Shown: in pieces, positions 2,129 through 34,096 of the stretch
Numbering within the stretch: the first letter of the stretch is position 1
Layout of the letters: each line of letters starts with the position of its first letter
NCBI GenBank assembly: GCA_013297655.1
Contig: JAAFHV010000063.1
Span: forward strand, 1 to 38,184
Source: Myxococcales bacterium
GTDB taxonomy: Bacteria; Myxococcota_A; Polyangia; Polyangiales; Polyangiaceae
Reading direction: 5' to 3'
DNA length: 38,184 nucleotides
The notes under the pieces: generated by a model
The model's input: only the letters and a program-made list of their open reading frames with translations
Told to the model about the DNA's origin: nothing
Database searches by the model: none
Made by a program: the position numbers and the translations under genes

Positions 2129-3916
2129 ATGGCCCGCAGAATCGAGGATCTCGCCATTATTGGGGACTGCCAAACCGTCGCGCTCGTCGGAATCGACGGG
2201 TCGATGGACTGGCTCTGCTTTCCGCGGTTCGATTCGCCGGCATGTTTCGCGGCCCTGCTCGGCGGCCCCGAGCATGGGCGTTGGAAGATCGCGCCGGTGG
2301 GCGCCGTTGCCCGAACCACCCGCGCGTACCGCGGGGAGACCCTCGTCCTCGAGACCACATTCGAGACCGAAACTGGCGCCGTCGTCGTCGTCGACTGTAT
2401 GCCGATTCGAACCGAACAACCCGACGTCGTGCGGATCATCAAGGGTCTTCGCGGCACGGTGCGTATGCGCATGGAGCTCGTGGTGCGGTTCGACTACGGC
2501 ACGATCACGCCGTGGGTGAAGAGCGTCCCCGGCGGCGTGCAGGCGGTCGGTGGACCGGAGACGCTCCAGCTTCGGACGTCGGCTCCTCTCCACGGCGAGG
2601 GCTGGAGCACGGTGGCAGAGCTCGACGTCGCGGCGGGTGAACAGGTCCCCTTCGTGCTCACGTGGCACCCGTCGCACGTGGCGCCTCCGGCCGAGATCGA
2701 CCCGTTCGCCGCCGTAGATACGACCGCGGCGTGGTGGACCGAGTGGGTATCGCGCGCCACCTATAGCGGCCCATTTCGCGACGCGGTGGTGCGCTCGCTC
2801 GTCACGCTGAAGGCCCTCACGTATGCGCCCACCGGAGGCATCGTCGCTGCCGCGACCACGTCGCTCCCCGAGCACATCGGCGGAGTACGTAATTGGGACT
2901 ACCGCTACTGCTGGCTAAGGGACGCCACATTCACGCTTAGCGCCCTCATTCAAAGCGGCTACATCGAGGAGGCGAGGGCATGGCGCGACTGGCTCATGCG
3001 CGCCGTAGCGGGACGCGGCGACGAGCTCCACATCATGTACGGCCTCGCGGGCGAGCGCCGCCTCCCGGAGATGACGCTCCCGTGGCTCCCCGGGTTCGAG
3101 GGCTCGCAGCCCGTACGAATCGGGAATGGCGCTCACGATCAGTTCCAGCTCGACGTCTTCGGGGAGGTTCTGGATTGCCTCCACGTCGCGCGGAGATCGG
3201 GGCTCACCCACACCGACGATTGGCGCATCGAGCGAGAGCTCATGAAGCAGCTCTCCCGCGTGTGGCGCGAGCCAGACGAGGGAATCTGGGAGGTCCGCGG
3301 CCCCAAGCGCCACTTCACCCACTCCAAGGTCATGGCGTGGGTCGCCTTCGATCGTGCAGTGAAGGACGCCGAGCAATATGGCCTCGCCGGCCCCATCGAC
3401 GAATGGCGAGGCGCGCGCGACGAGATCCACGCCGAGATCTGCGAGCGCGCGTTCGACAAGGGGAAGAACACGTTCGTGCAGTCCTACGGCTCGACGGATC
3501 TCGACGCGAGCGTGCTCGTCATGGCGGAGGTAGGCTTCCTCCCCGCGACCGATCCGCGCATCGTCGGCACCGTGGCGGCGATCGAGCGAGAGCTGCTCCG
3601 CGATGGGTTCGTCGATCGTTACCTCTCGCACACGGGAGTCGACGGGCTCCCGAGCGGCGAGGGAGCCTTCTTGCTTTGCACGTTTTGGCTCGCGGACAAT
3701 TACGCGCTCATGGGCCGCCGCGAGGAAGCGGAGAAGATCTTCACGGGCCTCTTGGCCATTCGCAACGACGTCGGGCTGCTCGCCGAAGAGTACGATCCGA
3801 AGCATCGGCAGCAGCTCGGCAACTTCCCCCAGGCGTTCTCCCACCTCGCCCTCATCAACACGGCGCGCATCCTCTTCGAGCGCGACAGCCCCACGACGTC
3901 TCGCCGAGCTCCGTGA
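2129..3916 (+). CDS. Glycoside hydrolase family 15 protein (glucoamylase/trehalase-like)
   Basis: The 595-residue enzyme is predicted to hydrolyse alpha-glucosidic bonds, with glucoamylase- or trehalase-type specificity that cannot be decided from sequence. It starts MARRIEDLAIIGDCQTVALV and GSMDWLCFPRFDSPACFAAL, the N-terminal beta-sandwich signature of bacterial GH15 proteins. The (alpha/alpha)6 catalytic domain carries GGVRNWDYRYCWLRDA at about residues 251-266, DEGIWEVRG around 383-390 (general-acid region, Glu384/388) and SGEGAFLLCTFWLADN around 509-524 (general-base Glu511). Length is normal for the family. The ATG at 2129 is preceded by GAGGAG (2117-2122) at good spacing, which favours it over the upstream ATG at 2093. 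No signal peptide is seen, so it is probably cytoplasmic and involved in trehalose or alpha-glucan turnover. It stands alone, without other glycan genes. Confidence 0.93.
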   Translation: MARRIEDLAIIGDCQTVALVGIDGSMDWLCFPRFDSPACFAALLGGPEHGRWKIAPVGAVARTTRAYRGETLVLETTFETETGAVVVVDCMPIRTEQPDVVRIIKGLRGTVRMRMELVVRFDYGTITPWVKSVPGGVQAVGGPETLQLRTSAPLHGEGWSTVAELDVAAGEQVPFVLTWHPSHVAPPAEIDPFAAVDTTAAWWTEWVSRATYSGPFRDAVVRSLVTLKALTYAPTGGIVAAATTSLPEHIGGVRNWDYRYCWLRDATFTLSALIQSGYIEEARAWRDWLMRAVAGRGDELHIMYGLAGERRLPEMTLPWLPGFEGSQPVRIGNGAHDQFQLDVFGEVLDCLHVARRSGLTHTDDWRIERELMKQLSRVWREPDEGIWEVRGPKRHFTHSKVMAWVAFDRAVKDAEQYGLAGPIDEWRGARDEIHAEICERAFDKGKNTFVQSYGSTDLDASVLVMAEVGFLPATDPRIVGTVAAIERELLRDGFVDRYLSHTGVDGLPSGEGAFLLCTFWLADNYALMGRREEAEKIFTGLLAIRNDVGLLAEEYDPKHRQQLGNFPQAFSHLALINTARILFERDSPTTSRRAP

Positions 3917-4139
3917 GGTAGCCCATTGTCCAGAGGCGCCCGCGCTCGGTCCGCCCGGTGCCATGCGATCGAGCCTCTTTCGCGCGCAGAGGAGGCGCCG
4001 CTGCGGCTCGCCGTGGCGTCGCTCGCGTTCACGACCAGGCTGCGGTGCGCACCCGTGCAAACGACTGCACATTCTCAGCGGAAATCGGCCCATTTATCGC
4101 GAAAGTGCGTTGGGCACCGCGCTTGCTCTGGCGCATACC

Positions 4140-4538
4140 GTGCACCTCACGCCCAGCTCGTTTCGCCACACCATCGCCCCCCTCTTCGGCGCGCTCACGC
4201 TCACCGCCTCGCCGCTGGCTTGGGCCGATCCGCCTATTGCTCGAGCGCCGACAGCCGCAGCAGCATCGCCAGAAATGGAGGGCCCTACGCCGCGCGGCGA
4301 AGCGCCAACCGCCGATTCGGCACGGCCCACGATCCCTGCTCCACCGCGCCCGCCGCCGGTCGAAGCGAACACGCGACCTCGGATCGAGCCTCCGTCGACC
4401 GTCGAGGGTTACGACGAGGCGATCGAGAGCACGGAGCGCGAAGAACGAAGCAGCGCGCGCACCACGACCATCCCGCCTCGCCCGGCCGTCGGCTTGTCTC
4501 TCACGCCGACGAGCGTCGGCCTCCAAGGCGCGTTTTAG
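4140..4538 (+). CDS. Short exported Pro-rich protein, possibly truncated by the adjacent element
   Basis: From a GTG at 4140 the frame encodes 132 residues. A signal-peptide-like segment (RHTIAPLFGALTLTASPLAW with ADPP after the likely cleavage site) is followed by an Ala/Pro/Glu-rich region (PAPPRPPPVEANTRPR) and ends VGLSLTPTSVGLQGAF. The codon use is host-like. The protein stops abruptly at TAG 4536-4538, exactly at the left end of the inverted-repeat element (4538-4787). It may therefore be the N-terminus of a longer exported protein cut by the insertion, although the stop could also be native. No convincing Shine-Dalgarno lies before the GTG. No family is recognised. Confidence 0.5.
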   Translation: MHLTPSSFRHTIAPLFGALTLTASPLAWADPPIARAPTAAAASPEMEGPTPRGEAPTADSARPTIPAPPRPPPVEANTRPRIEPPSTVEGYDEAIESTEREERSSARTTTIPPRPAVGLSLTPTSVGLQGAF

Positions 4539-4569
4539 CAGCCCGTTGATTTTCGGACCGAGGCCAGTC

Positions 4570-4597
4570 GTCCCTCGTCAGGGACTTCCAAGGGTCG
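4570..4597. repeat. 28-bp direct repeat, copy 1 (hairpin-forming)
   Basis: This copy starts GTCCCTCGTCAGGGAC, a perfect 6-bp stem with a CGTC loop, and continues TTCCAAGGGTCG. It is identical over 28 bases to the copy at 4649-4676. It overlaps the inner end of the left terminal repeat by one base. Confidence 0.85.
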
Positions 4598-4648
4598 TCG
4601 TCCGCGCCCGATCCGCCGAGGCGCGATCCGAGGAGCGCGCGGAGCCTA

Positions 4649-4676
4649 GTCCCTCGTCAGGGACTTCCAAGGGTCG
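4649..4676. repeat. 28-bp direct repeat, copy 2 (hairpin-forming)
   Basis: The second copy is identical to 4570-4597, with start-to-start spacing of 79 bp and 51 bp of unrelated sequence between copies. Each copy has the GTCCCT/AGGGAC stem. Two copies with a 51-bp gap do not make a CRISPR array. They more likely belong to the surrounding mobile element as protein-binding or RNA-folding sites. Confidence 0.85.
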
Positions 4677-4787
4677 CTTTCTAGGTGAGCACGCACCGCA
4701 GGATCGCGCGCGCTTACAGCGCCGAGACACACGAAGGCGGTCGGGATGCGGCGGCGACTGGCCGACGGGAGAAAATCAACGGGCCGC

Positions 4788-5061
4788 TAGCCGGCACTCC
4801 GAGCGCCAAACTTCAAGAATTCCGAGCGCGGCCAACACGGAGCATCTCGCCGTCACCGGACCGCCGCTTGCTGCTGGGCGCGGACCTCAACCGTCGCTTG
4901 CGCAAAGGGCAAGTCGGCATGGCCCCGCGGAAATAGCTTCAAAATGGATAGTGAACGTGACCGCCATGGATGGCACACTGCGTGAATAGGGTTTGGTAGC
5001 TCGCAAGGGCTTCTGTCACTGGGGGGGTGCCGTATCCAAGCAACCCAGGAAGCAGTCACCC
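4788..5061. other. Non-coding or decayed stretch between the element and the next gene
   Basis: The only open frame (to TAG at 4936) has weaker third-position GC than the neighbouring genes and no recognisable protein. If the element (including its TA ends) is removed, the frame of the truncated ORF at 4140 runs into this open frame for about 48 codons, so it could be the decayed 3' part of that gene. The last ~120 bp presumably hold the promoter of the gene at 5062. No other structure is seen. Confidence 0.4.
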
Positions 5062-33277: not shown

Positions 33278-33910
33278 ATGGCTACGGCACGCGCGACGTT
33301 CTCCCTCCTCGCGTGCATCGTGTGCCTTGTGCCATTGGCCAATAGCGCGTGCTCTGCCAACGGAGTTGGCGCCCCGTGCGTGCTCGAGCTCGAGGACGAC
33401 CCTCAATTTACGGGGAGCGCGCTCGAGCAAGTCTTTTACGAATCCAAGAGCTATCAGTGCCAAACGGGGCTCTGCCTCTCGAATCACTTTCGAGGGCGCG
33501 CGAGCTGCCCATACGGTCAAGATGAGTATGGCGGCGGCATCTCGTCGGGGCCGTGCAGGCTGCCGCTGGGCGGAAGCGTCGTTGGACTGCAAGGTACCGA
33601 GCGAGGGGCGCGCGTCGAGCCCCAGTGTGTCGACCGCCGCGCAGACGTGGCGGTGTACTGCTCGTGTCGCTGCAAGAACCTGTTCGGAAGAACCGACGAC
33701 GGCGGGCGGTACTGCACGTGCCCAGAAGGTTTCGAATGCTCGAAGCTCGACCCTCCCCTCGGCGCGGCCGACGAAGGGCTTACGGGCAGCTTCTGCATCA
33801 AGGCAGGCACCTCGCGGGTCGCGTGCTCCAGCGTGTGCGACAAGCGCGATCCCTCGGCGCAATGCGAAGACGACCGCGAAGCGGGCAACGAAGGCGCCCG
33901 GTCGAAATAA
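33278..33910 (+). CDS. Cys-rich lipoprotein
   Basis: From ATG 33278 the protein is 210 residues with a lipoprotein signal (TFSLLACIVCLVPLANSAC; lipobox NSAC). The mature part is rich in paired Cys (CQTGLCLSNHFRGRASC, YCSCRCKNLFGR, YCTCPEGFECSKL, CSSVCDKRDPSAQC). The CSCRC...CTCPEGFEC part resembles small EGF-like or other disulfide-rich extracellular modules but fits no family I recognise. An in-frame ATG at 33245 is an alternative start but would put extra residues before the signal peptide. It follows the TIKI-like lipoprotein by 68 bp on the same strand. An extracellular location is expected; no function is known. Confidence 0.75.
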   Translation: MATARATFSLLACIVCLVPLANSACSANGVGAPCVLELEDDPQFTGSALEQVFYESKSYQCQTGLCLSNHFRGRASCPYGQDEYGGGISSGPCRLPLGGSVVGLQGTERGARVEPQCVDRRADVAVYCSCRCKNLFGRTDDGGRYCTCPEGFECSKLDPPLGAADEGLTGSFCIKAGTSRVACSSVCDKRDPSAQCEDDREAGNEGARSK

Positions 33911-34096
33911 GTGTGCCAGATTCCGTCGAGACCGACGCGAGGTAGGTGCCCGAGGAGCGAGCACCGGAAGCCTACTCCCGTAGTTTGCGGAGCGACGAGG
34001 CCACCTGCAGCGAGAGGATCGGCGGGAGACGGCGCACTTTCTTCGACCGGGCGCCTAAGCGTCCCGCGCGAGCACCGACCACGACGGCGCGAAGGC

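Follow-up and report, generated by a model that had tools for sequence, protein, structure and literature searches.

IS1272, which belongs to the IS1182 family, is reported to recognise stem-loops and to replace them, with no target-site duplication (PMC5678879), and for ISPse1 the listed features are repeats of 16/16 bp and a duplication of 4 bp (PMC3281130). REP elements of the GTAG- and CGTC-tagged kinds are palindromic repeats of 20-40 bp that occur in many copies, and the CGTC REPs have stems of 8-9 bp and no known transposase (PMC3733652).

The window, by which we mean the whole stretch of DNA that was analysed (38,184 nucleotides), is contig C507 of the genome of a Myxococcales bacterium (9.9 Mb in 546 contigs, 97.6% complete), and it contains an element that is a genuine MITE. 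It is quite likely that this MITE owes its movement to an IS1182-like DDE transposase acting in trans, which the assembly now lacks, and that it is built around a structured hairpin. It resembles the IS1182-family MITEs (IS1182, IS1272, ISPse1) in having tips common to DUF772-DDE_Tnp_1 transposases whose best NCBIfam match is IS1182, but differs from them in being a single long hairpin whose arms covary and whose apex is akin to a gene-3'-end family, in residing in a host with no match to the transposase, and in that the related transposases fall below the NF033551 cut-off. What is new is the covarying hairpin body, the nested 27-bp repeats and the kinship to a stop-codon-anchored hairpin family. 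Literature searches returned no match for the letters of the tip or of the repeat, and none linking the IS1182 family with CTAG and a target site.

An earlier note on this DNA had proposed a non-autonomous transposon at 4538-4787, with 33-bp ends inverted at 26 of 33 positions, TA on both sides and no transposase inside. The inverted ends are real: 26/33 is the best 33-bp inverted match in 4301-5000, and among 100 dinucleotide-preserving shuffles of that region the maximum was 24 and the mean 20.5, with 0 at 26 or more, so that the terminal inverted repeats exceed chance. The bounds of the earlier note were short, however, as the repeat reaches 2 nt further out on each side and forms an inverted pair of 35 nt that is 80% complementary (Table 1). 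TA stands at both ends, at 4536-4537 and 4788-4789, and the length of the element is too small for a transposase gene, which agrees with the claim that none lies inside, as do the listed open frames that cross it and extend out into the flanks. That description was nevertheless incomplete, since it missed the identical 28-nt direct repeats (4570-4597 and 4649-4676) and their nesting, the covariation of the arms and the kinship of the apex to the hairpin family that we call C. No family of Rfam 15 matches anywhere in the window at the gathering threshold, and the putative ORF that runs up to the element has no Pfam match. The element opens with TAG (4536-4538), which forms the stop codon of the upstream open frame; as a G likewise stands behind the right-hand TA, the site would read TAG without the element as well.

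Table 1. Positions of the element, its parts and associated features in the window
Feature	Position	Strand	Remarks
Whole element	4536..4789	+	254 bp = ~176-bp core + two 27-bp inserts + small length differences
Left terminal inverted repeat	4536..4570	+	first 19 nt = IS1182-like tip TAGCAGCCCGTTGATTTTC
Right terminal inverted repeat	4755..4789	-	
27-bp mini-repeat no. 1	4571..4597	+	left arm, insertion point GTCG^TCGTCC; missing there in C218, C224, C530, C267
27-bp mini-repeat no. 2	4650..4676	+	apical loop, insertion point CCTAG^TTTTCTAGG; C65, C224, C530 uninterrupted there
Apical module related to hairpin family C	4621..4709	-	CGTGCTCAC-stem-loop-TCCGCGCG; 15.8 bits, E 2e-4 in 331 nt
Putative short ORF, GTG start	4140..4538	+	in frame of ORF 3603-4538; coding status only possible
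Diverged second relative of hairpin family C	33901..34047	-	between convergent genes; 29.9 bits, E 4e-5

The element is one of many in its host. A search of the host genome with 4500-4830 gave at least 53 matches, to the whole element or to portions of it, the best among the candidates scored being 98% identical over 253 bp on contig C313; copy counts for this genome are lower bounds, with 40 of 234 candidates scored. The 16-nt tip pattern has 26 host sites at up to 2 mismatches, against 0 for the reversed pattern as control. Twelve two-ended copies, the window copy C507 included, could be aligned, and they lie at dispersed sites with unrelated flanks. Their tip is CAGCCCGTTGATTTWC in C507, C313, C290, C262, C65, C218, C224, C530 and C267 and CAGGCTGCTGAAAA in C168, C532 and C334, the latter tip having 7 host sites at up to 1 mismatch; the shortest intact copies are C224 and C530 at ~179 bp. 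One-ended, contig-cut or decayed copies also exist in the host, and alignment A1 omits them (C8, C142, C152, C200, C206, C301, C446, C509 and C530:4599). A search of 58 relatives found no whole element and short partial matches in 10 of them, the best of which match the 27-mer, and a plasmid collection searched with the element itself gave no match. The second copy on which the earlier note had made its proposal depend is therefore present many times over, and the element is neither single nor a structured RNA fixed at one locus.

The parent can be approached through the element tips TARCAGCCCGTTGATTTWC, which match IS1182-like transposons (DUF772-DDE_Tnp_1). A scan of GTDB contigs with 18 nt of the tip gave 48 loci, at 5 of which (L132, L139, L156, L158, L168) convergent tips stand within 1.5 kb; most of the other loci are single and may have arisen by chance. 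At L132 the convergent tips, 1475 bp, enclose a 456-aa transposase and at L156 a 367-aa transposase, both with DUF772 and DDE_Tnp_1 domains. The best NCBIfam match of both is NF033551 IS1182 (194.7 and 163.5 bits, respectively), with scores below the curated cut-off of 270 for membership in IS1182, and for this reason we call the parent 'IS1182-like'. The further loci L158 and L168, both in Myxococcota MAG-130, each hold a MITE of 164 bp; the two MITEs are 77% identical to each other and share ~20-22 nt of tip with the host copies, with unrelated interiors. An IS with the same ends, which the earlier note had advised looking for, thus exists in other bacteria (L132, L156) and was not found in the host. 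That the same tips are carried by transposase-bearing elements and by MITEs of unrelated interior, together with the dispersed copies in unrelated flanks, upholds the view of a non-autonomous transposon. The host genome has no NF033551 match, nor any match to the L132 transposase in a search run without a positive control. Given tips on transposase-bearing elements elsewhere and none on such elements in the host, an IS1182-like parent would have been lost, left unassembled or never resident. An order-wide scan of 183 genomes with the exact tip gave one extra site, L123, in another family and with no partner, which is probably due to chance. In Myxococcales bacterium UBA1660, five contigs (L152-L154, L162, L164) end a few bases from the tip TAGCAGCCCGTTGATTTACT, which suggests that the assembly may have broken at a multicopy element having such ends.

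Related ISs on plasmids allow a comparison of ends and target sites. From the best 30 of 1265 related records 6 were taken, and 5 of these 6 (L180, L181, L183, L184, L185) end in motifs like TARCAGSSCGNTGA, in L184 without TA; L182 has no such motif. A megablast of two of these plasmid loci found no record with both flanks minus the IS. Among the two-ended copies in the host, the flanks often read YTAR (CTAG, TTAA), and identical 4-nt flanks occur in 3 of 12, so that a 4-bp target duplication is not significant (shuffle p 0.17). Neither duplication nor replacement is legible in the present host copies, and for none of them was an empty site seen.

Between the tips the element folds back on itself. 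The C530 copy folds over its full length as one hairpin (-60.5 kcal/mol as DNA, z -7.2), and the window copy folded as RNA has a z of -6.5. Across the 12 copies 94.3% of cells are paired, against a shuffle mean of 87.8%, and both partners have changed in 16 of the 68 pairs, compared with 8.5 in shuffles; 0 of 500 shuffles, which ignore the kinship between copies, reach either observed value. Part of this covariation separates the two tip types, so that the events may be few. Within the first tip type the outer bases change in both arms (TAG/CTA, TAA/TTA, TGG/CCA), as does an inner exchange of T/A to A/T. Selection for folding and copying from arm to arm both fit this pattern: the pairing may have been kept as a stem-loop or cruciform is needed for mobility or function or, alternatively, template switching may have copied one arm onto the other.

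The interior carries a second layer of repeats. The 27-bp unit TCCCTCGTCAGGGACTTCCAAGGGTCG is present in the window copy as two exact inserts, and copies without the unit at the same points show the window copy to be a core plus two inserts; C152 adds a third insertion point for the 27-mer, which lies in the right arm (CCCG^TCGGCC). The host genome has 94 sites at up to 3 mismatches (control 0), of which 51, among the matches listed, are exact. At up to 2 mismatches the 27-mer occurs in 7 of 108 genomes of the family including the host, with 80 in the host and 1 to 4 in each of the others, and it is rare in other genera. When neighbouring copies are merged, 63 places remain, 43 of them in three families of hairpins, namely A, to which the present element belongs (10), B (20) and C (13), 4 in two pairs and 16 alone. 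The base after the unit is T in 59 of the 63 places, and the base before it is G in 54. Family C likewise comprises 111-nt versions without the 27-mer alongside 138-nt versions with it. We infer that the 27-bp repeat is a very small mobile sequence in its own right and was a later arrival in the element.

Family C, which was reached via the 27-mer, is a hairpin with a core of ~111 nt and an outer stem that varies between copies yet remains largely complementary; both partners have changed in 21 of 49 pairs among 8 copies and in 23 of 35 among 28 copies. Within the host's family, model R1 detects this hairpin in 19 of 108 genomes and 12 of 48 genera. Of 58 copies, the 5' flank was usable in 56, and 46 of these flanks contained a GC3-rich frame. 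In 41 of these 46 scorable copies the hairpin follows the stop codon by no more than 20 nt, always on the one strand; the corresponding figure for random points in a subset of the family C loci is 74 of 1720 (4%), and on the 3' side a stop is within range in 0 of 28. The 42 proteins encoded upstream include one related pair only, from two different genomes. For the loci of families B and C, Rfam 15 yielded nothing beyond a tRNA and matches under the threshold. Family C looks like a widespread gene-3'-end device in the host's bacterial family. Its loci are L222, L241, L252-L271 and L223-L251 and, in the host, C321, C187, C235 and others. Family B is another hairpin element, 160-235 bp long; its tips read CTAGAGCRCC, and their inner bases vary between copies but stay complementary. 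It is found at L073 481-667, L076 895-1081, L096 1448-1635, L203, L209, L210, L220 and L066 13743-13902.

The link between the families comes from model R2, which was built from family C alone. In 356 kb it matches uninterrupted A copies (L062, E 8e-6; L063, 9.5e-6; L066, 8.2e-6) and, more weakly, L065, L056, L060, L055, L058 and L059, all on the opposite strand relative to the window, and it matches B copies as well (L066, 3e-7; L076, 7.9e-6). The interrupted window copy is absent from the matches of this 356-kb search; within the window, R2 aligns to the apex with the 27-mer as a loop insertion. The A-to-C relation has covariance scores of ~32 bits over a shared apex of ~33 nt, and a plain profile HMM of A found no C copy at E up to 1, whereas the covariance models did connect them. 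Judged from these scores, the interior of the element is apparently related to the stop-codon-anchored family C, and 'just a MITE' is an incomplete description of it.

How these observations are best combined has to be weighed against other explanations. In the case of a MITE moved in trans, an IS1182-like transposase would recognise the TARCAGCCCGTTGATTTWC tips, and what lies between them is a long structured hairpin related to the gene-3'-end family rather than an IS remnant. Most likely, a pre-existing structured hairpin would have acquired IS1182-type tips and then moved, presumably by IS1182-type transposition. The strong covariation in A and in C, the R2 matches to A and B, the position of family C behind stop codons and the 2 of 12 A copies that begin exactly at the stop of a long GC3-rich frame would all suit a structured RNA or terminator, that is, an mRNA 3'-end hairpin family spread by duplication, whose tips resemble IS ends secondarily. 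This is unlikely, however, as most A copies stand at no fixed distance from a stop codon on either side, as they are dispersed and up to 98% identical, and as such tips stand on either side of transposases and of unrelated MITEs in other bacteria.

The remaining two alternatives keep the transposon and change its parent or its state. A decayed remnant of a once larger IS, rather than a propagating MITE, might account for the copies that are one-ended or degraded, but we regard it as very improbable in view of the common defined interior of the twelve two-ended copies, which is kin to family C and not to a transposase gene, and no IS with this interior was found. Hardly any weight can be given to an IS630/Tc1-type MITE with a TA duplication and a DDE_3 transposase, at which the earlier note had guessed from the TA flanks. 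TA does stand on both sides in 7 of 12 two-ended copies, but the tips belong to DUF772-DDE_Tnp_1 elements, and the sole DDE_3 match in the host has no tip at up to 4 mismatches within 1.5-kb flanks.

Beyond the MITE itself we speculate, with considerable doubt, that A, B and C are branches of a single superfamily, so far undescribed, of long hairpins with covarying arms in the host's family: basal C would be fixed after stops, A and B would have gained IS-type tips and turned mobile, and the 27-bp repeat would land in these hairpins. Both arms would change together because the transposase would read the stem-loop structure and not the end sequence alone. To our knowledge, structure-dependent transposition has been proposed for IS1272 and little explored, and the natural series found here, in which copies either have or lack the 27-bp insert, one interior carries two types of tip and the arms covary, suits testing it. 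Through the element, a MITE is also connected with a hairpin family that recurs behind stop codons and is represented by no Rfam model.

The 27-bp repeat, in turn, would rank among the shortest apparently mobile DNA units. Very small mobile repeats, the SDR of cyanobacteria, have reportedly been described by Elhai et al. 2008; the 27-bp unit is like them an exact, very short insert in other repeats, with interrupted and uninterrupted versions, and unlike them in sequence and phylum. With REP elements it has in common that it is a short palindromic repeat in many copies and, with the CGTC REPs, that no transposase is known; with its preceding G it forms a 6-bp stem with an 11-12-nt tail, as opposed to their stems of 8-9 bp. 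In contrast to REP/RAYT systems, the 27-mer sits in larger hairpins and in head-to-tail arrays, and its host genome has no match to Y1_Tnp (RAYT-type), for which control genomes were positive in 5 of 14; a RAYT is therefore rejected as the mover of the 27-mer. The head-to-tail arrays (L205, L213, L218, L092, L112; for example in C503 and C274) share variant bases within an array. A longer relative of the 27-mer, at L054 9992-10091, L056 and L093, has the same first ~18 nt followed by GCGGGCCTGTAGCGTCGTC and is found as an insert within certain copies of families A and B.
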